This document shows, one piece after another, positions 20,351-39,213 of a stretch of DNA of 64,000 nucleotides. This DNA comes from an uncultured Paracoccaceae bacterium. Lineage in GTDB: Bacteria > Pseudomonadota > Alphaproteobacteria > Rhodobacterales > Rhodobacteraceae. The translations under genes were made by a program, and so were the position numbers. Position 1 is the stretch's first letter, and each line of letters begins with the position of its first letter. Location: contig CANMIX010000002.1 of NCBI GenBank assembly GCA_947497985.1, positions 310,001-374,000 of the forward strand, written 5' to 3'. The notes beneath the pieces were generated by a model. That model had not been told where the DNA came from. It saw only the letters and a list, made by a program, of their open reading frames with translations, and did not search any database.

Positions 20351-21961
20351 ATGATGGGCTACGCTGATGGTGAGGGTGACTGGTCAACCTCTGCGTCTCC
20401 GTCGGCCTCTCATTCTGTTGCGCAACGCGGTGCAACTGGGGGCTGGCTGCACGGGCAGACGGCGGGGCTGCGATCACGAATGTCTCGGTGGTTGCCCGAC
20501 AGGTTGAGCCTGCGGTTGGTGTTGGCGTCGCTTCTGATCAGTTCGTTTCTGTCCTTTTTTGCGACAGCGATCCAGATTTTCAGCAGCTATCACCGGCAAA
20601 AGACCGATACGCTGCGGGTGTTCCAGCAGGTTGAACAGGTCATGCAGCGCCAATTGGAACAGGCCCTGTGGGAGTTCGACTTTGATCAGGTGGAACTGAT
20701 CCTTGATGGATTGCTGGCCCAAAGTGAGATCTTTTACGTGGCGCTGGTCTCGCCTACCGGACACCAGTGGAGGCGTGGAGACCCCAAACCGGGGCCCATG
20801 ACCGGTGAATTCAAACTCTCAGTGTCAAATTCCAACGGTGAGGCCACCCATGTGGGTGATCTCAGCGTTCACTTGACCCTGGACGCGGTGAAAGACCGGG
20901 TCAAAGCGCAGTTTTGGACAACGCTGATTTCAAACATCGCCAAAGCCTATGTGGGGGCGACGCTTTTGATGATTGTTGTGCATCGGCTGATCATCCGACA
21001 TCTCAAAAAAGTGGCGGTGCATGTTTCGGGCGCGGAGCCGATAGAGCAGGGACGAAGGCTAACGTTGGACCGAAAACCGCCGCACGAACCGGATGCGTTG
21101 GAACAGATCGTCAGCGCGATTCATGGTTTCGAAACGCGGGTTGAAGGGCATGTGCAGCAGCTGGATCAGGAAATGTCAGATCGTGCCAAGGCCCAGAGGG
21201 AGGCTGAACTGGCTGCCCAGGCCCGCACCCAGTTTTTGGCCAATATGAGCCAAGATATTCGCACTCCAATGAATTCGATCCTGGGGCTGTTTCAATTGAT
21301 CCAAAACAGCGATGAAGTGCCAGAACGTCACCGCGCGCAGGCGCAATTCGGTCTTGGTGCAGCGCATCACTTGAGCGCGCAATTGATCAATATGTTGGAT
21401 CTGTCCCGTCTGGACAGTGGCGACATCACTCCGACGCCGATTGCGACGGATCTGCGTGTGCTGGCAGATGGCTGGCTGGCCCATGCCCGTGCCTTGGTGC
21501 GGCGCCAGGAGAGTAAAGCCATCGTTTTGCTGGATTGGCATTCGGAACTATCGCCCAACTACAGTTTGGACGGCAATCAGGTGACGCGCATTGTCGAATG
21601 CTTGTGCGACAACGCAGCCAAATTCTGCCGCAAGGGCCAGATATCTATCACGGTGCGCCCGCTGGTGGCCGCGTCAACGCGTGGTGGTCTGACGGAGGGT
21701 GCGGTGCCAGGCGGGTTGGAGATTTTGGTGCGCGATTGTGGTCCGGGCATTCGCTATGAGGATCGCGACAGGATCTTCGAACGGTTCACCAGCATCGAAG
21801 AACATCTGCAGATCAAGTCCGAAGGAGCGGGCCTGGGGCTCGCGCTTGCGCGGGAGATGGCGCAGTTGCTGGGCGGAAGCCTGGAGGTGTCCGAAAGCGA
21901 AGCCTCGCCCTTTACCAATGAGTTCCGTTTGATCCTGCCCAATGTGGCGCCAGTTTCCTGA
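20351..21961 (+). CDS. Membrane histidine-kinase-like protein lacking the phospho-acceptor histidine
   Basis: A 536-residue protein. One membrane helix lies at about 55-80 and another at about 195-215, flanking a roughly 115-residue periplasmic domain. The dimerisation helix carries FLANMSQDIRTPMNSILG: the normal MSHEIRTP histidine is glutamine (codon CAA at 21251-21253). The ATPase domain keeps the N box (CLCDNAAKFC), G1 (VRDCGPGI), F box (IFERFTS) and G2 (GAGLGLALAREMA). It may bind ATP but cannot autophosphorylate in the usual way. No response regulator is adjacent. It precedes the Ser/Thr kinase operon by about 380 bases on the same strand. Confidence 0.88.
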   Translation: MMGYADGEGDWSTSASPSASHSVAQRGATGGWLHGQTAGLRSRMSRWLPDRLSLRLVLASLLISSFLSFFATAIQIFSSYHRQKTDTLRVFQQVEQVMQRQLEQALWEFDFDQVELILDGLLAQSEIFYVALVSPTGHQWRRGDPKPGPMTGEFKLSVSNSNGEATHVGDLSVHLTLDAVKDRVKAQFWTTLISNIAKAYVGATLLMIVVHRLIIRHLKKVAVHVSGAEPIEQGRRLTLDRKPPHEPDALEQIVSAIHGFETRVEGHVQQLDQEMSDRAKAQREAELAAQARTQFLANMSQDIRTPMNSILGLFQLIQNSDEVPERHRAQAQFGLGAAHHLSAQLINMLDLSRLDSGDITPTPIATDLRVLADGWLAHARALVRRQESKAIVLLDWHSELSPNYSLDGNQVTRIVECLCDNAAKFCRKGQISITVRPLVAASTRGGLTEGAVPGGLEILVRDCGPGIRYEDRDRIFERFTSIEEHLQIKSEGAGLGLALAREMAQLLGGSLEVSESEASPFTNEFRLILPNVAPVS

Positions 21962-22340
21962 TCCAACGCCGCGCTGACGAGTGACCTTAGGCGGATATAT
22001 GGCCCTGGGAGATTCGCATGGCTTTTTGCCATGTGCGGCCCATTTGGGCCAAGGTCGTTAAAATGCGCACGAATTTTGGCTCTAAATCCCTGAATTCGCG
22101 CAATTTTACCAAAAACACCCGGATAAAGTTAAACCCGCGTAAAGGCCTTGTTTCCAACGCGTTTGTGCACGCTTGTGGCGAAAATCGGTCACAAATGCCG
22201 CAATTGCCCCGATGTTGCCGCATTTCGAACACAGGTCTTGCCGAGCCTTTGATGGACGAAAACACCGCATGAACCAGCGGTTGGCCGGGTACAAATCCCG
22301 CCTGTCCCATTGAGTGCCGAGCAAGGAAAGCGAACCCAAC
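21962..22340. other. Intergenic region before the Ser/Thr kinase operon
   Basis: 379 bases without a supported gene, AT-richer in the middle (22030-22140). It probably contains the promoter of the kinase-GTPase operon. No terminator hairpin with a T-run was seen after the sensor gene, so read-through is possible. Confidence 0.4.
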
Positions 22341-23762
22341 GTGTTGCCACAAACCTGTGTCCCTCCGTCTCAGCCAGAGACCATCCGCGCGAGCGATGAA
22401 GTGCTTGCGCTGCCGTTTGGGCACAGCCTTTTGCAGGGGCAATACCGGATCGAGCGGGAGCTGATGGCTGGCGGTTTTGGCATCACCTATCTGGCACGGG
22501 ACAGTCTGGACCGGCAGGTGGTGATCAAGGAATGTTTCCCGGCCGGTTTCTGCATTCGCGAAGGCGTCAAAGTCGCGACCCATTCGCCCTATCGCGCGAA
22601 GTCCTTCAAAAATGTGTTGCGCCACTTTCTGCGTGAGGCCCAGTGGTTGGCGCGCGCGCAACACGACAGCATTGTCACCGTGCATCAGGTTTTTAAGGAA
22701 AACGGCACCGCGTATATCGCGATGGAGTGTATCGAGGGCTGCGATCTGGTGACCTTGCGTTCCGAGGACGCGGCGCGGTTGGATCAGGAACTGCTGTCGC
22801 ATCTCCTGGCGCAAGCCTTGGAGGCGGTGTCGGTTTTGCACACGCAAGGCATCCTGCACCGAGATCTGTCGCCGGACAATTTTTTGATTGATGCCGCGAA
22901 CCACCTGACCTTGATCGATTTCGGCGCGGCCTGCGGAGTGCAGGGCGGCGCGGACACCGCTCTGGGCGCGATGTTGTCTGTCAAAGACGGCTATTCACCC
23001 CATGAGTTTTACCAACCCGACATGCCGCAACGCCTGTCTAGCGATCTCTATTCTCTGGGGGCGACGTTTTACTTCCTGATCACGGGAACGCCGCCGCCGG
23101 ATGCGCAGGCGCGCTTGAAAGCGGTCACTGCGGGCTATGATGATCCCTGTTCCCTGCTCGAAGTGGGGGACTGGCCTTTTGATGCGGCTTTCCTGCGCGC
23201 GATCGACAAAGCCATGTCGATCCTGCCTGGAATGCGGTTTCAGTCGGCTGAAGAATGGGCCGACAGTCTGGTGCTGCAGGCCCGGCCGGCACTGGATGCG
23301 CAACCGGCAACCAACACCGCCCAACCTCATATCGACGCCGTCGAAGAGGCTGGAACATCCCCGGTTCCAGCGGCGGTGATTTCTGACCTTGTGGCGGCAA
23401 CCAACAAACAGGTGACACCGGGACGCCCGGCGCGCACCGCATCCACTGCTGCCGCGATGCCTGCGCCCAAAAAGCCAGCCCAGATGGTTGACATGTTTGG
23501 TGAGCCGATCGGCGATGTGGATCAGTGGCTGGAGGCACAAGATCAGATGGCCCGCCGACAGATTGAACCGGTTGCGAAAAAAAGCACGCCGCCGCGCCGC
23601 CGTGAGCAAAGGCCGTCTCCGCAACCTGCTGGGGGCGCGTCGAAATTGGAAACAAAAGCCGAGAAACGCGCGTCTGAGACCGGATGGGCGGATCGTGTGG
23701 CGCGGATTTGGGGGGCGGGTGATCGCTCTGATGCCATGACAGTAAATGGGAAGACGACATGA
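22341..23762 (+). CDS. Hanks-type serine/threonine protein kinase
   Basis: A 473-residue soluble kinase. The GTG at 22341 is preceded by AAGGAAAG; a GTG at 22314 is also open. The catalytic core shows the P-loop LMAGGFGITYLARD, the ATP lysine in VVIKECFP, catalytic HRDLSPDN, metal-binding LIDFGAA, and an activation segment ending GYSPHEF where most kinases have APE. All catalytic residues are present. From about residue 300 a Pro/Ala/Gln-rich tail follows, with no membrane helix. It overlaps the FHA gene by four bases (ATGA) and a PP2C gene follows, making a reversible-phosphorylation set. Confidence 0.93.
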   Translation: MLPQTCVPPSQPETIRASDEVLALPFGHSLLQGQYRIERELMAGGFGITYLARDSLDRQVVIKECFPAGFCIREGVKVATHSPYRAKSFKNVLRHFLREAQWLARAQHDSIVTVHQVFKENGTAYIAMECIEGCDLVTLRSEDAARLDQELLSHLLAQALEAVSVLHTQGILHRDLSPDNFLIDAANHLTLIDFGAACGVQGGADTALGAMLSVKDGYSPHEFYQPDMPQRLSSDLYSLGATFYFLITGTPPPDAQARLKAVTAGYDDPCSLLEVGDWPFDAAFLRAIDKAMSILPGMRFQSAEEWADSLVLQARPALDAQPATNTAQPHIDAVEEAGTSPVPAAVISDLVAATNKQVTPGRPARTASTAAAMPAPKKPAQMVDMFGEPIGDVDQWLEAQDQMARRQIEPVAKKSTPPRRREQRPSPQPAGGASKLETKAEKRASETGWADRVARIWGAGDRSDAMTVNGKTT

Positions 23763-25306
23763 AGTTTATCAAGGACATCATCGGTGAGAAGCGAGATCAG
23801 ATCCCGATGAGCCCAGCGGATGGAGGACAGGTGCAGGGTACGGCGGCGCCGGAGCGGGACATGTTGACCTCCATTCTGGCGGAGACGCGCGCCAATGCAC
23901 AGGCCACTCCCCCCCTCAAGCTGGAGGCTGCGTCGCGGGTGGAAGAGGCTGCTGAACCTCGCAAAGAGGCAGTGGTCGCTGCGTCCGAGACACGTGTCGA
24001 CACACCCGCATCTGATGCAGTTGTGACCCCAGATAGCGCAGATGCGCTGACGGCTTTTCTGGCGGAACGCAATCGCGTCTTGCAGTCGGTTGTCCCCGCT
24101 GAGGCGGCCCCTGAACCGCTAGCGGAAGACGCGCGGGACGACGCCATTGTTGTGGATGATACGGACGCAGATGCAGCGCCTTTGGCGGATGACGGTGGTC
24201 TGGAGCGTCCTTACCGGATTTTCACCCGTCGCAATCGCACCAAGATGCTGCGTCTGGAGGCTGCAGTAGAAGCCGCGTCGCAGAGCGGTAGTGACAGCAG
24301 TTTGCCAGCAGAAGATGTGACCGAAGACGTCTATTTTGCAGATGAGGATTTTGCAGATGAGATTGATTTGGAGCAGGGCAGCTACGAAGGTACTCGCGTG
24401 GACCTTCTGGATCATGGGCCGGATGAGTTTATGCATATCCGTAACGCAGCGACGGCCACCGCTCCGCCACCCGCCGAGCTACAGCCCTTCTCTCACACTG
24501 ACGTCCCGTCGCAACCACTTGGGACCGGAGCTTCGGCACCTGGCGAAGAGTTAGGCGACACCAACGGGTCTCGGCCCGCGCGACGGGCAGTGACGCCGGA
24601 TCCGGTAAAGCTGGTCACGGATCCGGCGTTCACCGGGGGGGCAGAGCTGGCGGCAGACAGACCTGTCGAAGGCCAAGAATTGCCGGTGGATGAGCAGGCC
24701 AACCCTGCGCCAATGCGCGTGGTCGAAGCGTCATCCGCAAGCCCGAGGCCGGAATTGGGTGCGGCCTTTCCTGAACCTGCCTTTGCAGAGACTGCGGCGG
24801 CTGCGGGCGTGGATCTAGGCGAAGCGGATCTGGGATTGCCTATGGGGCGCGCCGGTCGAGTGAAGACGCGGCTCTTGGGATTTGATGCGGATATGGGCGT
24901 CGGTGATCCCTTTGCGCAGACAGACGTGTCGGACAATGGCGGGGTTACACAGTTTCCAGTTGGCTGGCTGGTTGTCGTGGACGGGCCGGGGCGCGGGGCC
25001 GGTTTTACCTTGTTCGCAGGCGTCAGCGTCATTGGCCGGGGCGAGGGCCAGACCGTGCGATTGGATTTCGGCGACAGCAGTATTTCGCGCGACCAGCATG
25101 CCGCCATTGCCTATGACCCTGAACAACAAGGGTTCTTTATTGGCCACGGTGGCAAAGCGAACTTGGTGCGCCGCAATGGGCGTCCCGTGCTCAGCACCGA
25201 AGCTTTGGCACCCGGCGATGTCATTCGCGTGGGCGAGACAACTTTGCGGTTTGTGCCGCTGTGCGGACCAGAGTTTTCGTGGCAGGACGGAGCGCATCTT
25301 GGTTGA
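23759..25306 (+). CDS. FHA-domain protein with long acidic N-terminal region
   Basis: A 515-residue protein. Residues 1 to about 390 are acidic, Ala/Glu/Asp/Pro-rich and probably disordered, with repeats such as FADEDFADEIDLE. The C-terminal about 110 residues form an FHA phosphothreonine-binding domain: VIGRGEGQ, SSISRDQHAAI (serine and histidine of the motif) and NLVRRNGRPV. It starts within the kinase stop codon (ATGA). It is likely an adaptor or substrate that recruits phosphorylated partners. Confidence 0.92.
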   Translation: MKFIKDIIGEKRDQIPMSPADGGQVQGTAAPERDMLTSILAETRANAQATPPLKLEAASRVEEAAEPRKEAVVAASETRVDTPASDAVVTPDSADALTAFLAERNRVLQSVVPAEAAPEPLAEDARDDAIVVDDTDADAAPLADDGGLERPYRIFTRRNRTKMLRLEAAVEAASQSGSDSSLPAEDVTEDVYFADEDFADEIDLEQGSYEGTRVDLLDHGPDEFMHIRNAATATAPPPAELQPFSHTDVPSQPLGTGASAPGEELGDTNGSRPARRAVTPDPVKLVTDPAFTGGAELAADRPVEGQELPVDEQANPAPMRVVEASSASPRPELGAAFPEPAFAETAAAAGVDLGEADLGLPMGRAGRVKTRLLGFDADMGVGDPFAQTDVSDNGGVTQFPVGWLVVVDGPGRGAGFTLFAGVSVIGRGEGQTVRLDFGDSSISRDQHAAIAYDPEQQGFFIGHGGKANLVRRNGRPVLSTEALAPGDVIRVGETTLRFVPLCGPEFSWQDGAHLG

Positions 25307-26231
25307 GCTGATCTATGATACGGCCACCGCGCTCAGTCAGGGGCGACGGGATCGGCAGGAAGACGCGGTGGTTGCCGATTTTCAGACCGGCACCGGACAG
25401 GGGTTTGCGGTTTTATCTGATGGCATGGGCGGTCACGCGGGCGGCGATGTCGCCAGCAAGATCGTGGTGACCGAGGTCTTTGCCGAATTGAAGCTGCGCA
25501 GTGGCGACACTCAGGCCCTGGAAACGGGTATGACGCCTATTCTGGTGGAGGCGGCCAAAGGGGCGAACGCTTGCCTGGCGCAATATGCCGAGGGCGACCC
25601 GACCCGCAAAGGCATGGGCGCCACCCTGTTGGCGCCGGTAATCCTGGGTCGCAAGCTCTATTGGGTGTCAGTCGGAGACTCGCCGTTGTTTCTGCTGCGC
25701 GAGGGGCGGTTGCGGCGGCTCAACGCCGATCACTCGATGGCGGCGCATCTGGATCAATTGGTGGCGGCGGGTAAGATCAATTCCGAAACTGCACGGCGTC
25801 ACCCGGACCGTGCCTGCGTCACCTCCGTTCTGGCGGGGCGTGCGATTGCGGAAATTGACTGTCCGGCGCAGCCTTTGACCTTGCGACCACGCGATATTGT
25901 GGTGGCGGCCAGTGACGGGCTGATGTCGATGGAGATCAAAGCCTTGGAGCGTTGCCTGTGCACCCATGCCGACAGCCCTGCTGCGCAGATCGCCCAGCAT
26001 CTGCTGGCCGAGGTCGCAGCCCTGGGGCAGGCGGAACAGGACAATTTGGCTTTCTGCGTGATCCGGGTTTTGCCGCCTTTGGTGCCGGTCGCGATGGAGC
26101 CGCCTGAAAATCTGCAAATGCAACACGCACCGCGCAAAAGCTTTCGCCGCCGCAAGACAACGATGGTGGCCGCCGCACAGCATCAAAACGGCCAGCTTCA
26201 TTTTCACAGCCTATCAAAGAGGTCACTGTGA
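25299..26231 (+). CDS. PP2C/PPM-type protein phosphatase
   Basis: A 310-residue phosphatase. The start is the TTG at 25299, with GGACGGAG just upstream, inside the end of the FHA gene (8-base overlap). PPM motifs in order are RRDRQEDAVV, LSDGMGGHAGGDVAS, GMGATLLAPV, WVSVGDSPLFLLR, LNADHS, AASDGLM and EQDNLAF, so the metal-binding aspartates are present. The C-terminal 50 residues are basic and look disordered. It is the natural opponent of the upstream Ser/Thr kinase. Confidence 0.92.
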   Translation: MVELIYDTATALSQGRRDRQEDAVVADFQTGTGQGFAVLSDGMGGHAGGDVASKIVVTEVFAELKLRSGDTQALETGMTPILVEAAKGANACLAQYAEGDPTRKGMGATLLAPVILGRKLYWVSVGDSPLFLLREGRLRRLNADHSMAAHLDQLVAAGKINSETARRHPDRACVTSVLAGRAIAEIDCPAQPLTLRPRDIVVAASDGLMSMEIKALERCLCTHADSPAAQIAQHLLAEVAALGQAEQDNLAFCVIRVLPPLVPVAMEPPENLQMQHAPRKSFRRRKTTMVAAAQHQNGQLHFHSLSKRSL

Positions 26232-27553
26232 TCAATACCGCCCCTCATTACCCCGATAGTGCCTCCGCCACGCCGCCCCAGTTCCCGCAAGATGACGCGC
26301 CCGGATTGGAGCAACAATTGCGTGTGGCTTTGGCGGCAACCGGACTTTCTCCGCAGTTGGCCGCGCGCGGGCAACGCCTTCTGGAGCGGCTGACCCGACC
26401 GGTGCAGGTGCTGGTTGTTGGCCCTGCGGGGTCCGGTAAATCGGCCGTGATCGATATGTTGCTGGGCACCCGCGCCACCGGAGCGTTGAACGGTGTCGCG
26501 ATGGTGGAGCTGTCTTATGGTCCGGCACCCTGCGCGGTGTTCGAAGACGCCAACGGCAACGGCGCGCCGCTGGACGGGGTGTTGGGGGATTTTGTCGTGC
26601 CCGAGGAGTGCGTCAGCGCGCGCCAGACCTACCCGCATGCGCTGCTGAAATTTCTGACCCTGACAGAGGTGACATTGGCCGGTGCCCAGGCACAACAACA
26701 GGCGATCCTGCGCCATGCAGTGGAATATGGCGATGTGATCCTGTGGTGCAGTCAGGACTTTGACACACAAGAGCAGGCGCTGTGGTCAGATGTGCCCGAA
26801 CGCAAACGAGACAGCGGGTTTCTGGTTTTGACCCAGGCGGATCAACAGATCATGCGGGGGACGTTGCATGATTGTGTCAGCCAGTTGGCTCCGCTTGTGG
26901 AGCAGAGTTTCCTAGGCCTGTATCCGGTTGCGGCGCGGCAGGGATTGCAAGCCAAAGGAGGCGGAGTCGGCGGAGACAAAGCGCTGTGGCGCGCCAGTGG
27001 TGGTCAACGGTTGGCCGAAGATCTGCGCCGCCGGGTCGCACAGGGGCGCGCCGCAACTCAGGATCAGGCTGAGGCGTTTTTGTGGCAACTCTCGATACAG
27101 GGCACGCCCGTGTCCGAGGCCGTGTCAGGTCCTGCGCCCGCTCCTCAGGCTGAGGCTATGGCAGAGCACAGACCAACGCCAACCCCAGCACCGACCATGT
27201 CCGATCCAAGTTCTGCGGTTCTGGAACAGGCCCTTGCGCAGCTGCAAGGCCAGGCAGAGGCGATGCTGGAAGAGGCCGGCGACACACCCAAAAGCGCGGC
27301 GGTCCTGGATCACTGTTTGCTCGCGGTGCGCGAGATGGCCGAAACCTTGTTGAGCACGCCACAGGGGAGTGTGCAGGACATGCCAGCCCTTCAAGCCGCG
27401 CGTGCGGCCAATGAAGACGGCGAAGAAATGTTGATGTTGTTGCAATTGGAACAGGATGAAGATGCGGCTGTGGATGCGGTCACCTTGTTGTTGCAGTTGA
27501 AAAAGGAGTTGAGCGACCCGGCGATGTCCCCATTTGGAGAAGGGCGGTCATGA
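26228..27553 (+). CDS. Divergent P-loop GTPase-like protein
   Basis: A 441-residue protein starting with GTG at 26228, overlapping the phosphatase stop (GTGA). A Walker A, VVGPAGSGKSAVIDMLLG (about 62-79), and a possible G4 remnant, LTQAD, suggest a dynamin- or Era-like G domain, but no clear DxPG (G3) is seen. After about residue 290 comes a Pro/Ala-rich linker, then acidic helices rich in Leu and Gln (MLMLLQLEQDEDAA). I cannot name the family. Its place directly before the dynamin-like gene (ATGA overlap) suggests a partner of that protein. Confidence 0.8.
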   Translation: MINTAPHYPDSASATPPQFPQDDAPGLEQQLRVALAATGLSPQLAARGQRLLERLTRPVQVLVVGPAGSGKSAVIDMLLGTRATGALNGVAMVELSYGPAPCAVFEDANGNGAPLDGVLGDFVVPEECVSARQTYPHALLKFLTLTEVTLAGAQAQQQAILRHAVEYGDVILWCSQDFDTQEQALWSDVPERKRDSGFLVLTQADQQIMRGTLHDCVSQLAPLVEQSFLGLYPVAARQGLQAKGGGVGGDKALWRASGGQRLAEDLRRRVAQGRAATQDQAEAFLWQLSIQGTPVSEAVSGPAPAPQAEAMAEHRPTPTPAPTMSDPSSAVLEQALAQLQGQAEAMLEEAGDTPKSAAVLDHCLLAVREMAETLLSTPQGSVQDMPALQAARAANEDGEEMLMLLQLEQDEDAAVDAVTLLLQLKKELSDPAMSPFGEGRS

Positions 27554-29682
27554 TACTTGCACATCCCATTTCTGACCAAGGCGCCGCCCCCTTAATGGTT
27601 GAGACAACCCCAAAGCCGCAGGCGTTGACAGATATTCGCGCAGCCTCGGCGCCGGGAAACCTGCAGGCCGGCTTGGAGCCGCTGGCGACATTGGCCCAGC
27701 GGCGCAGTCAGCTGCTGAAGGCGCTTGAAGGCTTGAGCGCTGTGTCAGGCGAGGCGGCGCAGCGCGCTTTGGGTCGGCTCAAAAGCGAGCTGGCGGCCTA
27801 TGAGCCAGCCGTGACTGTGCTGGGGCAGGTCAAATCCGGGAAAACCGCGCTGGTCAATGCCATGGCGGGCTGGTCGGACCTGTTACCCAGCGATGTGAAC
27901 CCCTGGACCTCGGTTGTGACCTCGCTGCACCTGTCGCCGGATACGGCCCGCGCCGAGACCAGCGCTCGATTTCAATTCATGACCGAAGGCGAGTGGGATC
28001 GTTTGCTGACCAAGGGCGGCCGCATCGGAGAGATGGCCGGGCGCGCCGGTGCCGAAAGTGAGCTGCAAAAGATCCGTGAACAGATCGAAGCCATGCGCGA
28101 CCGCTCCCGCAGACGTCTGGGGCGCAAGTTTGAGATGTTGATGGGCCAAAGCCATGACTACGGCTATTTCGATAAGAACCTGATTGAACGCTACATTTGT
28201 CTTGGTGATGATTTTGAAGACGAGGGCAGCGACAGCGAAGATCAGGGGCGATTTGCCGACATCACCCGCTCGGCGGATCTGTATCTGAACAGTGGCATCG
28301 TGCCCCATCCCTTGTGTCTGCGCGACACGCCGGGGGTGAATGACACCTTTATGATGCGCGAGCAGATCACCATTCAGGCGGTGCGGGACAGCCGCATGTG
28401 TGTGGTGGTGTTGTCCGCCAGCCAGGCGCTGACCTCGGTGGACCTGGGATTGATCCGGATGATCGCAAGTCTGGACAGTCGTGAGGTGGTGATCTTTGTC
28501 AATCGGATCGACGAGCTGGCAGATCCCGCAAACCAGATCCCTGAGATCGAAGCTGCCATCCGCGAGACCCTGCGTCTGCACCACGGGCCCCAAGAGGCCG
28601 AGATCCTGTTTGGCAGCGCCTTTTGGGCCAATGCAGCCCTGATGGGGCAGTTGGACGGGTTGCCAAAAGCCAGTTCGGATGCGCTGTTGAATTGGGCCGA
28701 GGCCTGTGTTGCCTCGGGGCAGGCACGGATCGCCAAAGGGCCAGCCCAAGATATGGTTTGGCAGCTCTCGGGCTTGCCTGCCCTGCACAGGGTTCTGGGT
28801 GGGCGGATCCTGCGCGGTGAGGGCGAGGCCACATTGGCGCGTATCGCAACCTCTGCCCTGACGGTGGCCAGTGGGCAGGAGGCAGCCCAAGCCATTCGCG
28901 TGCAGGCCAATCGCGTGAGCGCAGCTCAGGGAGAGGTCGCGGTTGCAGCGCTGACACCTGATGCGGTGCGGATGACATTTGAACGCCTGGCAGATCGTCA
29001 TGTGGAGGCGCTGGAGGTGGATCTGGACGGAGTTCTGGCCTCGTACCGGGAACGGGCGGATCGAGCGCATGCGACCTTTGTCGATCGGGCGACGCGGGCT
29101 TTGATCGAACATTTGGAACAATGGGGGGACGAAAGCGTCTGGGAATATGATCCGGCAGGGCTGCGCCTGTTGCTGCGCACCGCCTATTCGGTGATGTCCA
29201 CGCGGCTACAAGCCGCGGCTCAGTCCCGGTATGAGGCCGCGGTACGCGATGTCGCAGGGCTGCTGCATCAGGGGTTTGGCAGCGCAGTCGAAGGTGTTCA
29301 GCTGGCGGTGCCACAGGTGCCGGATGTGGCTGCGCCTGTGGCCTTGGGGCAGACGATTGCGCTGGATTTCAACGACGGATGGTGGGCCAGCTGGTGGCGG
29401 CGCACCCGCGGATACAGCGCCTTTGCCAGTCGATTTCGTGCGCTGATCCAAGGCGAAACCGAAGATTTCATGATTCAGTTAAAATCAGTTCAAGTTGCAG
29501 ACACTCGGGCCAAGTTTTTAGCGCGGCTTCAAGGGTTTTTTGACGAACAGCGCGATATCCTGTCGGAGATTACCGACGCGCAGGCAGCCGATTTGCGACT
29601 GCGGTTCAGCGACCAAGAGCTGGATGCGCAGCACAAGGCACGCCGTGCCGCGTTGGATGTGTTGAAGAGTTATGCCGCCTGA
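27550..29682 (+). CDS. Dynamin-like large GTPase
   Basis: A 710-residue protein. The G domain shows G1 GQVKSGKTALVNAM, a G2 threonine region NPWTSVVTSL, G3 DTPGVND and G4 VNRIDEL (asparagine and aspartate kept). A long helical part follows. Near residues 615-640 the segment FNDGWWASWWRRTRGYS is aromatic and basic, a candidate membrane-binding paddle. Length and order fit bacterial dynamin-like proteins, which remodel or protect membranes. It is coupled by overlap to both neighbours. Confidence 0.9.
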   Translation: MILAHPISDQGAAPLMVETTPKPQALTDIRAASAPGNLQAGLEPLATLAQRRSQLLKALEGLSAVSGEAAQRALGRLKSELAAYEPAVTVLGQVKSGKTALVNAMAGWSDLLPSDVNPWTSVVTSLHLSPDTARAETSARFQFMTEGEWDRLLTKGGRIGEMAGRAGAESELQKIREQIEAMRDRSRRRLGRKFEMLMGQSHDYGYFDKNLIERYICLGDDFEDEGSDSEDQGRFADITRSADLYLNSGIVPHPLCLRDTPGVNDTFMMREQITIQAVRDSRMCVVVLSASQALTSVDLGLIRMIASLDSREVVIFVNRIDELADPANQIPEIEAAIRETLRLHHGPQEAEILFGSAFWANAALMGQLDGLPKASSDALLNWAEACVASGQARIAKGPAQDMVWQLSGLPALHRVLGGRILRGEGEATLARIATSALTVASGQEAAQAIRVQANRVSAAQGEVAVAALTPDAVRMTFERLADRHVEALEVDLDGVLASYRERADRAHATFVDRATRALIEHLEQWGDESVWEYDPAGLRLLLRTAYSVMSTRLQAAAQSRYEAAVRDVAGLLHQGFGSAVEGVQLAVPQVPDVAAPVALGQTIALDFNDGWWASWWRRTRGYSAFASRFRALIQGETEDFMIQLKSVQVADTRAKFLARLQGFFDEQRDILSEITDAQAADLRLRFSDQELDAQHKARRAALDVLKSYAA

Positions 29683-29714
29683 TGTTTTCCAAGGCGCAAG
29701 AAATTGGAGCTGAT

Positions 29715-30614
29715 ATGCCTGTGACCCAACCAACAGGACGAAAGCCACGTTTGGCGTTAATGGGCGAATTCAGCGCCGGCAAAAGCACGTTGACCCATTT
29801 GCTGGTCGGGCTTGAACCGCTGCCCGTGCAGGTTACCGCGACACGGCTGCCCCCGGTGTGGATCAGCCATGGCCCGGCCGCTGCCACCGTTGTTGGACTC
29901 GACGGTAGCGAAGAACAGATTGCGGTAGAACAGATCATTGATGTGCCATTGGACAGCACCGCTTTGATCCGCCTGTCCCTGCCTGCCGAGGCACTGGAGC
30001 TGTGCGATCTGATTGACATGCCCGGTATTTCCGACCCAAACATGCCAACCGAGGTCTGGCGCGCCTTGATGCCCGAAGTGGACGCCGTGATCTGGTGTAC
30101 CCATGCGACCCAGGCCTGGCGCCAGTCCGAAGCTGCGGCCTGGGACAGTATTCGTGATGGTCTGTCGGGGCCTTCGACTTTGTTGGTCACGCATTTTGAT
30201 AAGCTGCAAAATGATCGTGATCAGGCACGGGTTTTAAAACGCGTGGTGCGTGAAGCGGGTGAGAAATTTCAATCAGTCTTTCCCATCGCGCTCAACCAGG
30301 CGTTGGCGGCGGGCGATGATGCAGAGATCTGGCAGGCCAGCGGCGCGGACGCCTTTGTTGAAAGCCTGATCGAATTGTTGGTGCGTTGGAGTGACCCAAA
30401 ATCGCATGCACCGCAGGGCGAGTCCGCGCCCAGCAAGGCGGAAGCCCTTGCGCGTGAAGCCGCGCGAGATCGCGGTAAGACACAAACCCCACAGCCGGAA
30501 TCCTTGGTCGAAGGGCGGGTGGTGCCGCGTCGAGTCAAACGGGAACGTCGCAGCGAACGCCCGGATCGCAGCGCCGCGACAGCCGCGCGCCGTGCTCCAA
30601 TGGTTCCACGTTGA
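29715..30614 (+). CDS. Small dynamin-type GTPase with basic tail
   Basis: A 299-residue protein. I prefer the ATG at 29715, which has GGAG seven bases upstream; the ATG at 29682, touching the preceding stop (TGATG), would add 11 residues. G motifs are G1 MGEFSAGKSTLTHLL, G3 IDMPGISD and a G4-like THFDKL. After residue about 235 the protein is very basic (RRVKRERRSERPDR), suiting binding to acidic lipids, nucleic acid or the acidic FHA protein. Third GTPase-like gene in a row. Confidence 0.87.
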   Translation: MPVTQPTGRKPRLALMGEFSAGKSTLTHLLVGLEPLPVQVTATRLPPVWISHGPAAATVVGLDGSEEQIAVEQIIDVPLDSTALIRLSLPAEALELCDLIDMPGISDPNMPTEVWRALMPEVDAVIWCTHATQAWRQSEAAAWDSIRDGLSGPSTLLVTHFDKLQNDRDQARVLKRVVREAGEKFQSVFPIALNQALAAGDDAEIWQASGADAFVESLIELLVRWSDPKSHAPQGESAPSKAEALAREAARDRGKTQTPQPESLVEGRVVPRRVKRERRSERPDRSAATAARRAPMVPR

Positions 30615-30621
30615 GGCGTGT

Positions 30622-31104
30622 ATGAAACCACAGGCACATGCTCCTGAAGAATACCTCGCAAAGGCGCGTGGTCGTGCCGCAAACGGTCCGCTGTCGCTGG
30701 TGGAATTGTCGGCTGTTCTAACGGCGCTTCACGCGCAGGAACCGGGTTGCATTTTGACCGCCTTTGGCGATCTGAACGCACGGCTTGTGCTGCGTGCTGA
30801 ACCTGCGGGCGCTTGGCCGCAGGAGGCGCTGGATGATCTCTGCGCCCAGGCGTGTGAGGCCTTTGATTTGGCCAGAGGCGCTTCAGAGGAGCCGGTGGTT
30901 GCGCCCATCATCGCACTTGCGCCCGGTCAAACGCGATTGTTTGTCCCATTCGGCGCGGCTCAACCCGGCGACAGTGCAGAGGCCTTTTTGATCGTATGTG
31001 ATACGCTCCCTACGGTGCGACGTGTGGAACTTAAGCTGGGCGAAAAACTGCATGCGCTTGGGTTGGGAACGATAAAGCCAAAAGGTGGTCCATGCGCGCG
31101 CTGA
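30622..31104 (+). CDS. Small protein, possibly Roadblock/LC7-like
   Basis: A 160-residue protein with ATG at 30622 preceded by GAGG, seven bases after the small GTPase. The apparent secondary-structure order is helix, two strands (CILTAFGDLNARLVLRAEP), helix, three strands (QTRLFVPFGAA, AEAFLIVCD), helix, which is the order of Roadblock/LC7 domains. Such proteins (for example MglB) partner small GTPases. No sequence motif proves this, so the call is an inference from pattern and neighbours. Confidence 0.7.
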   Translation: MKPQAHAPEEYLAKARGRAANGPLSLVELSAVLTALHAQEPGCILTAFGDLNARLVLRAEPAGAWPQEALDDLCAQACEAFDLARGASEEPVVAPIIALAPGQTRLFVPFGAAQPGDSAEAFLIVCDTLPTVRRVELKLGEKLHALGLGTIKPKGGPCAR

Positions 31105-31841
31105 GCGATCTTGGTCACCAGTCGAGCGTGGCGCAGGATGGTGCGACGCAGGGCGAGTTGCGCGCGCGCTTAGACGAGCTTGTCACCAGGGGCGACGTAG
31201 AGGGCGTAACGGATGCGACGCCAGGCGCTGATTTGGATCAGATCCTGGCTGAGATCGACAGTATTATGCTGCCGAGAGAAGTAACAGTCTTCTGCGGATC
31301 GATGGCCGTGGCACGTTTGGTGATTTCTCAGCGGCGATTGGTTGGGCTGGCGCTTGTAGACGGAGGGAGCGGCGATCTGATTGATGGGGTCCGGCGGCTG
31401 TTGCAGACGTGCGATGGGCAGAGCTTGCGATTTCAACGGCATGTGGCCCATGCTCCGATTGGGGCTGAGAGCCTGTCCGCAGAGATGATCCGGTCGCGGC
31501 TTTGCACAATGGCGGCAAGCGATCCCACGCAATGGCAAAGGTTTGGGGTCGAGATCGCGCCGCATGTGTTGGCGTGGCGTGAAGTCAGCGATGACGGTCA
31601 GACGCGTCAGATTGGGGCAGAACAAGACCTGATGGTCCTAGAGGGCGTGTCGCGGAATATGCAGGGTACGCATGCGATCGGAGCCAAGGCACAGGCACTT
31701 TTTTTACCGTTGCCGGAGCAGTATCCAGATCACGTTCTGCTGGTGGCGCGGGCGGAACGGCAGCATTTTCTCGCCCTGGTGCGTGCGCCCGCGGTAACAG
31801 AGGTTGTCACGCTGTGGCAGCGGGTGTTCGACCGGGTGTGA
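31092..31841 (+). CDS. Hypothetical protein, last gene of the kinase-GTPase operon
   Basis: A 249-residue protein. The ATG at 31092 overlaps the previous gene by 13 bases and has AAAGGTGG upstream. The first about 60 residues are polar and acidic. A core with EVTVFCGSMAVARLVISQRR and a second strand-rich part (HVLLVARAERQHFLALVRA) suggest alpha/beta folding. There is no signal peptide or membrane helix. I do not recognise the family. Tight packing makes it part of the same module. Confidence 0.75.
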   Translation: MRALSDLGHQSSVAQDGATQGELRARLDELVTRGDVEGVTDATPGADLDQILAEIDSIMLPREVTVFCGSMAVARLVISQRRLVGLALVDGGSGDLIDGVRRLLQTCDGQSLRFQRHVAHAPIGAESLSAEMIRSRLCTMAASDPTQWQRFGVEIAPHVLAWREVSDDGQTRQIGAEQDLMVLEGVSRNMQGTHAIGAKAQALFLPLPEQYPDHVLLVARAERQHFLALVRAPAVTEVVTLWQRVFDRV

Positions 31842-32985: not shown

Positions 32986-34338
32986 ATGTCCGGACACGGC
33001 ACTCCTATTCCGATGACCTCTCGCCGCTCAGGCCCGCTCAAAGGTGTGGCCGAAGTGCCCGGCGATAAATCGATTTCGCACCGCTCTTTGATCTTGGGGG
33101 CTTTGGCCATCGGTGAAACGCAAATCACTGGTTTGCTCGAGGGCGAGGACGTGATCGACACGGCCAAGGCCATGCGCGCCTTTGGTGCCGAAGTCACCGA
33201 CCATGGCGGGGGCGAATGGTCCGTGCGTGGTGTCGGTGTTGGCGGTTTTCAGGAACCGGACAATGTGATCGACTGCGGCAACTCTGGCACTGGTGTGCGC
33301 CTGATCATGGGCGTCATGGCAACACAGCCGATCACCGCGACCTTTACCGGCGATGCCTCCCTAAACAAACGCCCAATGGCGCGCGTGACTGATCCGCTTG
33401 AGCTGTTTGGCACCCAGGCCGTCGGGCGTGAAGGTGGCCGCCTGCCGATGACGCTGGTGGGCGCAGCTGATCCTGTGCCCGTGCGTTATGAGGTGCCAGT
33501 GCCGTCGGCGCAGGTGAAATCTGCCGTGCTGCTGGCGGGTCTGAATGCGCCGGGCAAAACCGTGGTGATCGAGAAAGAAGCCACCCGTGACCATTCCGAG
33601 CGTATGCTTGCAGGCTTTGGCGCTGAAATCACCGTTGAGGATACCGATGAGGGTCGCGTCATCACCCTGACAGGCCAGCCCGAGCTGAAACCACAGATCA
33701 TCGCCGTGCCACGGGATCCATCCTCGGCCGCTTTCCCGGTCTGTGCGGCACTGGTCACACCCGGTTCTGACGTCCTCGTGCCAGGTATCGGTCTGAACCC
33801 GACCCGGGCCGGTCTGTTCACTACTTTGCGTGATATGGGCGCGGATCTGACGTATGAGAATGAGCGCGAAGAGGGCGGCGAGCCGGTTGCGGATCTGCGC
33901 GCCAAATTCTCTCCCAACATGAAGGGGATTGAGGTGCCGCCGGAACGCGCAGCCTCGATGATCGATGAATATCCGGTTTTGTCCGTGGTCGCGGCTTTTG
34001 CCACTGGAACCACCATGATGGCCGGTGTCAAAGAGCTGCGTGTCAAGGAAAGCGATCGGATCGATGCCATGGCGCGTGGTTTGCGGGCCAATGGCGTGAC
34101 CGTGGAAGAGGGGGCCGATTGGTGGAGCGTAGAGGGCCTTGGCCCGGATGGCGTCCCCGGTGGTGCGACCTGTGAAAGCTTTCTGGATCACCGCATCGCG
34201 ATGTCCTTTATGGTCATGGGGATGGGGGCACAAGAACCAGTCTCGGTGGACGATGGCAGCCCGATTGCAACGTCTTTTCCGATCTTTGAACCCTTGATGA
34301 GCAGCCTGGGCGCGCAGATTGTACGCAGCAATACATAA
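32986..34338 (+). CDS. aroA: 3-phosphoshikimate 1-carboxyvinyltransferase (EPSP synthase)
   Basis: A 450-residue shikimate-pathway enzyme joining shikimate-3-phosphate and PEP. Visible motifs are [44 protein letters not shown] and [14 protein letters not shown]. The overall wording ([15 protein letters not shown]) resembles class II enzymes, but the loop reads N-S-G-T, keeping the glycine at the position that is alanine in the glyphosate-tolerant CP4 enzyme. First gene of the aroA-cmk-rpsA block. Confidence 0.95.
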
Positions 34339-37963: not shown

Positions 37964-38821
37964 TTAGAGGATCAACGCGTCGATAACATCCTGGGGCGTG
38001 ATATCTGTACCGCCAAAGTATGATGTGTCGTTGATAATGACCTTACTGTCAGCGCCAAAGTTGAGAAGGATCCGATTTTCCTGCTCGTGCCCATACATGG
38101 CAAAGACTTCTTCGGCGGAGATCTCAAATTCATAGGCCGTGAGGTCGATGCGATCTAGGCCCCATACACCGGTGCCAAAGTTATGGATGACGTCGCGACC
38201 ATCGCCGGGCCGGAATACAAAAGTGTCAGCATTGGCGCTGTAACCGAACAGGCGGTCATTGCCTGTTCCACCATCCAAGGTTACCCGCGCGCCCGGTCCG
38301 TATTGATCAAAATCGTCCAAATCGAGCTCTTCGTTGACCCGGCCGCGCGCTTCGGACAACAGCACATCCCGGCCGCTTCCGCCATGTGCATCGCCGCCGC
38401 CAAAGGACGACATGACCAAAGTGTCGTTGCCGTTCCCCCCATAAAGGTGGGACGTCCCGCCGAAGCCACCGATCAGCACGTCATCCCCTGTTTCACCAAA
38501 CATCCACCAGTCCGTTGATTTGGGGAAGGGACCCACGGCGCCACCGGAGATAGCTTTGATGGTATCATTGCCGCTGCCGCCATACAGGTTTTCGGTGCCG
38601 CCATCGGTGAAATCGTCGATGATTAGATCATTGCCTGCTCCGCCGTAGGCCAGATCCGGGCCGGCGCCTGTGACAATCCTGTCGTCGCCGTCACCGCCCA
38701 GCAAAGTATCACGATGTTCTCGCCCATATAGGGTGTCGTTGCCGTCTCCCCCGTCAATCAGGTCAAGACCAAAACCTCCGGTTAGGACATCGTCCCCGGA
38801 ACTTCCTAAAAGCGTACGCAC
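37964..38821 (-). CDS. RTX calcium-binding repeat protein
   Basis: A 285-residue protein. The GTG at 38821 has AAGGA upstream. Six or more glycine-aspartate nonapeptides are seen (GGDGNDTLYG, LLGGDGDDRIV, YGGAGNDLI, YGGSGNDTIK, YGGNGNDTL, LDGGTGNDRLFG), which bind calcium as a beta-roll. There is no N-terminal signal, as expected for type I secretion with a C-terminal signal (ending PQDVIDALIL). No enzyme domain is visible, and no secretion genes lie in the window. Confidence 0.88.
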   Translation of the reverse strand: MRTLLGSSGDDVLTGGFGLDLIDGGDGNDTLYGREHRDTLLGGDGDDRIVTGAGPDLAYGGAGNDLIIDDFTDGGTENLYGGSGNDTIKAISGGAVGPFPKSTDWWMFGETGDDVLIGGFGGTSHLYGGNGNDTLVMSSFGGGDAHGGSGRDVLLSEARGRVNEELDLDDFDQYGPGARVTLDGGTGNDRLFGYSANADTFVFRPGDGRDVIHNFGTGVWGLDRIDLTAYEFEISAEEVFAMYGHEQENRILLNFGADSKVIINDTSYFGGTDITPQDVIDALIL

Positions 38822-39213
38822 AAGAAGGCATCCTTCACGCAAAACAAAAAACTGGTTACGAGAGAATCATAACTTATGCCGCGATTTCGGTAAAATTGTT
38901 TCTCCGTCTGCGGGTTGCCAAAATTCGGTGTAATTTGGGCAATGTTGCCTATGTCACCGGGGCTAATGCCCCTTGCGAGAAATGCAGTTTGCGCCTATAA
39001 GGCGGCTGTCTATAAAGATGCGGGAAACGCACAGACATCGGTTTGAGCAGGGTCGGGGCAACCTCCGGCCCTTTGTGTTATGTGTGTGTTTGGCATGTTT
39101 GAACCTTTGATCTGAGCTGCACCGGTCGGTGCCTTGCAACGAAAACGACCAACCCCAAGACCGGCGGAGACAACCGCGCGGCCAGAAAACGTTTTAAAGG
39201 AAAACACTGCCAC
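38822..39213. other. rpsA upstream region
   Basis: 392 bases between divergent RTX and rpsA genes. It holds the rpsA promoter and leader; AAAGGAAAAC lies 8-17 bases before the rpsA ATG. No protein-coding signal was found, and no known leader motif could be matched by eye. Confidence 0.5.

Follow-up and report, generated by a model that had tools for sequence, protein, structure and literature searches.

Results

A conserved operon combines Ser/Thr phosphorylation genes with dynamin-type GTPases

A stretch of 64,000 nucleotides from an uncultured Paracoccaceae bacterium (GenBank assembly GCA_947497985.1, contig CANMIX010000002.1, positions 310,001–374,000 of the forward strand), hereafter the window, carries at 22314–31841 an operon of eight genes that is conserved as a unit among relatives. 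In order, these genes encode a Hanks-type Ser/Thr kinase (K), a protein with an FHA domain (F), a PP2C-type phosphatase (P), a divergent homolog of small dynamin-type GTPases (G1), a dynamin-like GTPase (D), a small dynamin-type GTPase (G2), a divergent protein with a predicted Roadblock/LC7 fold (R), and a further protein (U) that may contain a second Roadblock domain. We infer the function of the operon from gene anatomy: it could specify a dynamin machine for membrane remodeling that is gated by Ser/Thr phosphorylation and served by a Roadblock regulator module, a reading that we hold to be about evenly balanced between right and wrong. All eight frames are open on the + strand, and the gaps between successive genes from K to U are −4, −5, −4, −4, −1, +7, and −13 bases. 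The first-pass annotation, which had described eight genes that overlap or nearly touch, was accurate in this respect, with gaps that range from −13 to +7 bases.

The D protein served as the query in a sample of 292 genomes of the order (match threshold 1e-10), 98 of which gave a match. We retrieved 99 stretches, drawn from 85 of these genomes, with the window representing an 86th, and built profiles of all eight proteins. The 12 D-positive genomes left out all belong to genus g22, whose four fetched members have an architecture that we call type II (the labels types I–IV are coined here), and type II is therefore under-counted. Excluding the other architectures gives a type I set of 76 loci, window included, from 71 genomes, and the complete order K-F-P-G1-D-G2-R-U is present in 67 of them: 63 are plain, three have a G1 that scores best to the G2 profile (in one of these, three additional genes separate K from F), and in one the D gene is split by a stop. 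The nine incomplete loci meet a contig end (L059, L070, and L102), are decayed (L023 and L054), or have no recognized K (L073, L075, and L076, from one genus) or no recognized R (L005). A second set of 80 named loci, the best of 490 matching stretches, leans toward close relatives and shares organisms with the genome sample; here all eight genes are in order in 69 loci, the others being cut by contig ends (nine), without a recognized R (one), or decayed (one). Both L112 (Tritonibacter aquimaris) and L005 (genome G248) have U with no recognized R between it and G2.

Across 62 loci, which exclude those missing any of the eight families as well as L051, L055, and L069, the pairwise identities of the eight proteins correlate with r values of 0.69–0.91 (no unlinked gene served as a baseline), as expected if the eight proteins descend together. 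Mean identities in these loci are 0.49 for D and P, 0.47 for G2, 0.45 for K, 0.43 for F, 0.30 for G1 and R, and 0.20 for U, making G1, R, and U the least conserved of the eight. The eight genes are a conserved unit, not a chance neighborhood. With the order kept in most loci of both sets, the kinase, FHA, and PP2C genes do belong together with the dynamin-type GTPases, as had been proposed from the window alone, and their homologs remain neighbors in many marine Rhodobacterales instead of being scattered.

The signaling genes retain their signature motifs

Domains were called by a Pfam scan of the window open reading frames (ORFs) with family cut-offs. Motifs were counted in the K-first loci of the genome-sample and named sets (65 and 73 loci, respectively; wider counts cover 69 and 76), and the motif names used for K, F, P, D, G1, and G2 are those that we take to be characteristic of each family. 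The kinase K (22314–23762; 482 residues) begins at a GTG codon, an alternative in-frame GTG at 22341 being also possible, and matches Pkinase over the cut-off (1.2e-29, 104 bits). Its HRDxxPxN motif is present in 64/65 and 72/73 loci and its DFG motif in all (65/65 and 73/73); a regular expression for the lysine pattern, which was too narrow, found it in 57/65 and 53/73. F (23759–25306; 515 residues) has a long N-terminal part without a domain match and, at its C-terminal end, an FHA domain (residues 424–492; 6e-6, 27 bits, over the cut-off) in which a motif resembling the phosphothreonine site recurs in 59/65 and 70/73 loci.

The phosphatase P (25302–26231; 309 residues; GTG start) matches PP2C_2 over the cut-off (1.4e-10, 41.6 bits, on the longer ORF) and the Stp1-family model at 2.9e-39, yet with 134.9 bits against a cut-off of 230. 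The motif R..[NQ][ED]D, which replaced a first PP2C pattern that was too narrow (20/65 and 43/73), is found in 69/69 and 76/76 loci. The starts given by the ORF finder for P (24882) and for R (30391) appear too early. K, P, and F each combine a domain score over the cut-off with the signature motifs of Hanks kinases, PP2C phosphatases, and FHA proteins, and across relatives these motifs are largely intact.

The operon encodes a dynamin pair and a divergent third homolog

D (27550–29682; 710 residues) and G2 (29682–30614; 310 residues), whose genes overlap, belong to the dynamin superfamily by both Dynamin_N score and GTPase motifs. Dynamin_N is matched by D at 1.1e-12 (48.8 bits) and by G2 at 9.2e-9 (36.0 bits), each against a cut-off of 27, and the D profile also matches the Nostoc-type bacterial dynamin 2j68 (3.7e-8) and 5owv (1.3e-7). 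The P-loop of D is present in 69/69 and 76/76 loci, DTPG in 65/65 and 73/73, and G4 in 63/65 and 73/73; for G2, the corresponding counts are 65/65 and 73/73 for the P-loop and 64/65 and 72/73 for DxPG. Near the C terminus of D lies a conserved WWxxWWRR stretch (residues 611–617), within which WWxxWW (611–616) recurs in 64/69 and 76/76 loci. BDLP-type dynamins, as we understand the family, carry their lipid-binding tip toward the C terminus, where D has this stretch, and our guess is that the WWxxWW segment is a candidate membrane tip.

G1 (26228–27553; 441 residues) is more divergent. The window copy gave no Dynamin_N match in the Pfam scan, its weak P-loop matches being below cut-off, and DxPG is found in 3/65 and 2/73 loci and the P-loop in 49/65 and 73/75. 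Although it falls outside the dynamin superfamily as judged by Dynamin_N and the G3 motif, G1 is homologous to dynamin-type GTPases by profile and by tree. The description of the operon as encoding a triple GTPase should therefore be qualified, given that G1 is without a G3 motif of the DxPG type at 62 of the 65 loci.

In relatives, these modules recur in rearranged form. The type II order, as in Ruegeria conchae and Ruegeria sp. AD91A, is a small protein, D, G2, R, U, a second dynamin (D2), G1, K, F, and P, followed by two genes annotated as transporter substrate-binding proteins; R and U are annotated there as hypothetical and were placed by order and by profiles on type II loci. The two halves face each other in Leisingera S132, with D-G2-R-U running forward and, in the opposite direction, K, two substrate-binding-type proteins, F, P, and a protein that occupies the G1 position. 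Type III consists of D, G2, D2, and the D2 partner, and type IV of a single D-G2 or D2-partner pair. Trees were built with FastTree and rooted at the midpoint. In the D tree, the 74 type I proteins cluster in a single clade, apart from a deep clade of D2 proteins (support of 1.0); in the tree of small GTPases, the 74 G1 proteins of type I cluster with the type II D2 partners (support of 1.0). From these groupings, it appears that D2 was lost from type I while the D2 partner known from type II was retained as G1, which is thus probably an orphan whose own dynamin is gone. G1 may now act as an adaptor, which would fit the loss of its G3 motif and, in part, of its P-loop.

R as a Roadblock-fold protein and U as a possible second one

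The predicted structure of R (30622–31104; 160 residues) has the Roadblock/LC7 fold, with MglB among the closest folds, which confirms an earlier suggestion that R is Roadblock-like. No Pfam family was found for the ORF of the window copy, and a profile search against PDB chains gave no meaningful match; R lies outside the Roadblock/LC7 family by sequence profile and inside it by fold. U (31092–31841; 249 residues) is probably composed of two domains. Its C-terminal half gives a borderline Roadblock-fold match in the predicted structure and may be a second Roadblock or longin-like domain, and its N-terminal part is not covered by the fold matches listed. Like R, U has no Pfam match in the window copy and no meaningful sequence match to PDB chains by profile. 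A small conserved protein that is Roadblock-like by eye, with no Pfam match, is encoded in 11 loci that have dynamin pairs and no kinase set (L079, L087, L089–L092, and L094–L098).

The likeness of R to MglB would also suit a polarity module, in which the Roadblock protein, the GTPases, and the kinase would direct some process to a particular site in the cell, in the manner of MglA-MglB, and the dynamin would mark the membrane and not remodel it. D and G2 are, however, dynamin-type and not Ras-type GTPases, and because D is distributed patchily (98/292 genomes), a core cell-cycle role is disfavored. We consider a polarity module quite improbable.

Some relatives suggest a link of the operon to the cell envelope

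Of 152 K proteins, 35 have a hydrophobic segment beyond the kinase domain, which is clear in 27 of them (mean hydropathy of at least 2.1, in ORFs of 572–985 residues), so that K is there a probable receptor kinase. Several loci also have envelope-related genes beside or inside the operon. PBP-like and OmpA genes follow U in six loci (L027, L030, L033, L043, L059, and L063), and in L064 they are placed upstream of K; PilJ-type genes stand beside the PBP-OmpA genes in L027, L030, L059, L063, and L064. Three LysM/solute-binding-type genes separate K and F in L051 (L051:1499–5020), which is otherwise a type I operon. Inspection by eye shows a signal peptide and then a repeat resembling LysM at the start of the type II substrate-binding proteins, and a LysM domain was matched in a Leisingera S132 homolog (2.7e-7). 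Plasmid loci apart, LysM/solute-binding genes were found in two of 180 scanned loci (L051 and L103).

The nature of these companions suggests sensing of the cell wall or periplasm. The window locus, like most, has no LysM, PBP-OmpA, or PilJ companion in the stretch examined. The envelope as a site of action, in line with the envelope stress raised as one possibility by the first-pass annotation, therefore finds partial support in those relatives with a probable transmembrane K or with LysM/solute-binding, OmpA, or PilJ neighbors, and none in the window itself, where K has no membrane segment and no such neighbor was found.

The operon is a patchily distributed accessory system

The 98 genomes of the order with a D match represent 40 of 112 genera. 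In a sample of the class, D was matched at 1e-15 in 2/337 genomes, both of the window's own family, and in a sample of the phylum at the same threshold in 9/348, eight of them likewise from that family and the ninth (G882) from another family of the class; on the G882 stretch, D- and G2-like genes are the sole ones recognized. The operon system is an accessory of the window's family. Within the genus, 11 of 18 genomes have D, which adjoins trmB in six; in the remaining five, it is either ≈200 kb distant or placed on a different contig. D or a relative was also found in 18 plasmid records (12 from Leisingera, five from Ruegeria, and one from Rhodobacter), and no copy of D was present among 50,697 phage records. 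Two type I loci occur in each of five sampled genomes; in G123, one of the two is a contig-edge fragment.

Such patchiness, both in the order and within the genus, is what one might expect of phage defense, in which the dynamins would act on the membrane at infection in the style of Eleos or LeoBC with the kinase as a sensor. The differing chromosomal sites even within the genus, the plasmid copies, and the divergence of R and U (mean identities of 0.30 and 0.20) are in keeping with this idea, as are weak PADLOC matches of G2 to LeoA (5.4e-4 over 27 residues) and LeoBC (1.2e-3 over 118 residues). Against it, D and G2 fall short of a match to the Dynamins, Eleos, and LeoBC defense models: no PADLOC model matched D at 0.1. 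K matches generic kinase models, and G1 gave two matches at 0.04–0.06. The phage records, as noted, contain no D. No defense island was seen among 120 flanking ORFs from 35 loci, in which PADLOC at 1e-20 gave four matches, all to mad3 (no control set served as a baseline); the 120 come from 152 ORFs picked greedily by length, and some are antisense and not genes. To our knowledge, a set of eight genes with a phospho-switch is unlike the small dynamin defense systems. Phage defense, which had been offered as one possible function, is not borne out by these data, and we regard it as distinctly unlikely.

Pfam searches of the same 120 ORFs found four ABC-transporter ATPases, not necessarily the four mad3 matches, and the first 25 of 93 Pfam families listed for the flanks are those of transporters, metabolic enzymes, histidine kinases, and autoinducer synthases, together with PilJ and one Phage_GPD protein. 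These flanks also bear on a vesicle device, in which phosphorylation would signal D and G2 to form membrane vesicles. In published abstracts, LeoA is connected with possible vesicle secretion and IniA with membrane fission, but in the parts of the flanks viewed, no known vesicle or secretion gene was noticed as a conserved partner; we think this explanation unlikely.

The operon is probably not a type VI secretion module

The combination of K, F, and P also recalls the PpkA/Fha/PppA threonine phosphorylation pathway, so that the operon might be a regulatory module for a type VI secretion system (T6SS) of its own genome. That genome (4.19 Mb) has a T6SS that is unlinked to the operon, with two VipB matches (C2:102165–116285) on the same contig, 222 kb and more before D. 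Over the whole sample, VipB is found in 80/292 genomes (34/98 with D and 46/194 without), which amounts to a weak co-occurrence (odds ratio of 1.7, Fisher p of 0.052), and one Phage_GPD (VgrG-type) protein is encoded among the 120 flanking ORFs. Against this, 64 of the 98 genomes with D have no VipB, and where VipB and D share a contig, the shortest distance between them is 63 kb in the places compared (the best D place in each genome with both, plus three second places, against most of the VipB places listed; other second D places were compared with VipB by eye). Moreover, the FHA domain of F is C-terminal, unlike that of T6SS Fha proteins, which we take to be N-terminal.

We judge a T6SS regulatory module to be very improbable, and a T6SS origin of the operon was rejected on the VipB distances and on the presence of D in genomes without a T6SS. 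The earlier observation that the set contains no T6SS structural gene holds, and in the loci compared, relatives do not have tss genes flanking it. The VgrG-type ORF of the flanks, assigned by eye to L033:1979–3877, lies ≈2.5 kb from U and, on the same contig, ≈300 kb from the VipB of that genome.

Flanking genes and other features of the window

Directly upstream of K, the window encodes a CHASE5 histidine kinase (20351–21961), which may be an input to the operon or merely a fixed neighbor. Three other members of the genus (genomes G923, G912, and G920) likewise have a relative of this kinase, with 45–79% identity, ahead of the operon. Downstream of U lies a trmB-like gene (from 31955; Methyltransf_4), followed by an aroA-like gene at 32986 that was recognized by eye. 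Among the matches listed, Epibacterium ulvae is the closest named relative for D, with 94% identity. An Rfam scan gave no match within the window, and a promoter and terminator scan gave numbers at the shuffled level. Elsewhere, a frame on the − strand (37964–38842) has glycine- and aspartate-rich repeats that by eye are in the style of RTX proteins, and the segment 50001–52000 has a strong local AT skew of −0.278, the other 2-kb steps lying between −0.092 and 0.156.

Discussion

In the phosphorylation-gated dynamin machine that we favor, K would phosphorylate a component of the set, most likely G1, the tail of F, or the D/G2 pair. F would then bind the phosphothreonine and recruit or hold the GTPases, and P would remove the phosphate and reset the switch, which would assemble or release the D-G2 pair at the inner membrane. 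By analogy with the role of MglB for MglA, R and U might form a scaffold or a GTPase-activating module of D/G2. D would insert its tryptophan-rich tip segment into the inner membrane and remodel, tether, or seal it. The trigger would probably be envelope damage or stress, because some K proteins are transmembrane-like and a minority of loci have LysM/solute-binding, OmpA, or PilJ genes within the operon or next to it. For the cytosolic K of the window's branch, the input would have to be a cytosolic signal or another sensor.

Several observations weigh against this reading. K goes unrecognized in L073, L075, and L076 despite ≈4.2 kb of sequence upstream of F. The window K reaches a hydropathy maximum of 1.15 and has no membrane segment, and LysM/solute-binding, PBP-OmpA, and PilJ genes were found in just 2, 7, and 5 of the 180 scanned loci, respectively, plasmid loci apart. 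In types III and IV, K, F, and P were not found in the stretches examined, and because these types have D-G2 without them, phosphorylation is not needed for every D. Finally, the type III D2 partners group with G2 and not with G1 in the small-GTPase tree, and the simple origin of G1 holds solely with respect to type II.

A fuller picture, which we advance tentatively and with slightly less than even confidence, is that of a new class of signaling machine. FHA-read Ser/Thr phosphorylation would gate a dynamin run by a pair of Roadblock-fold proteins and would turn envelope or cytosolic signals into membrane remodeling, type I having arisen from an ancestor with two dynamins and a receptor kinase and having kept G1 as a pseudo-GTPase adaptor. 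There is a fair chance that the operon is a system class of its own. Its parts are of known kinds, and no description of the gene set in combination was found in the open-access literature, subscription papers being largely outside this scope. One candidate for a prior description of a dynamin with FHA (PMC7016017) was rejected, because the operon with FHA in that paper is archaeal and unrelated. The operon gives a dynamin pair its own kinase, reader, phosphatase, and Roadblock-fold protein, and it makes the regulation and role of bacterial dynamins testable in cultured marine bacteria because the components of the switch are known and can be removed singly.

The closest comparison is with bacterial dynamin pairs such as Cj-DLP1/2, LeoABC, Nostoc BDLP1, and IniA. 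According to PMC6104087, most bacterial dynamin-like proteins (DLPs) occur as operon-encoded pairs, and Cj-DLP1/2 are speculated there to act in membrane repair. The operon shares with these systems a Dynamin_N GTPase of ≈700 residues with an overlapping second dynamin gene, as well as the matches of the D profile to 2j68 and 5owv. It differs in that G2, at merely 310 residues, leaves little room for a full trunk, and in its kinase, FHA, PP2C, and Roadblock partners, which are not mentioned in the available sections of PMC6104087 and PMC4159319; in those of the latter, the words "kinase" and "roadblock" occur 0 times. The Dynamins and Eleos defense systems likewise use dynamin-type GTPases, often in couples, according to the accessible text of PMC11811056, whereas D matches no PADLOC model and the operon has eight genes and was not seen in a defense-island setting.

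With the T6SS threonine phosphorylation pathway, the operon has in common a kinase and an FHA protein as a switch (PMC3953482, in the sections available) and a PP2C phosphatase. In contrast to that pathway, it contains no tss gene, and its conserved partners are dynamin GTPases and Roadblock-fold proteins. MglA-MglB and the actinobacterial conservons also encode a Roadblock-fold protein together with GTPases and a kinase, as set out in the available sections of PMC13343842, but the operon has dynamin-type instead of Ras-type GTPases, and a Ser/Thr kinase, FHA protein, and PP2C phosphatase in place of a histidine-kinase-like protein. If our reading is true, the operon would provide a bacterial case in which Roadblock-fold proteins serve dynamin-type rather than Ras-type GTPases.

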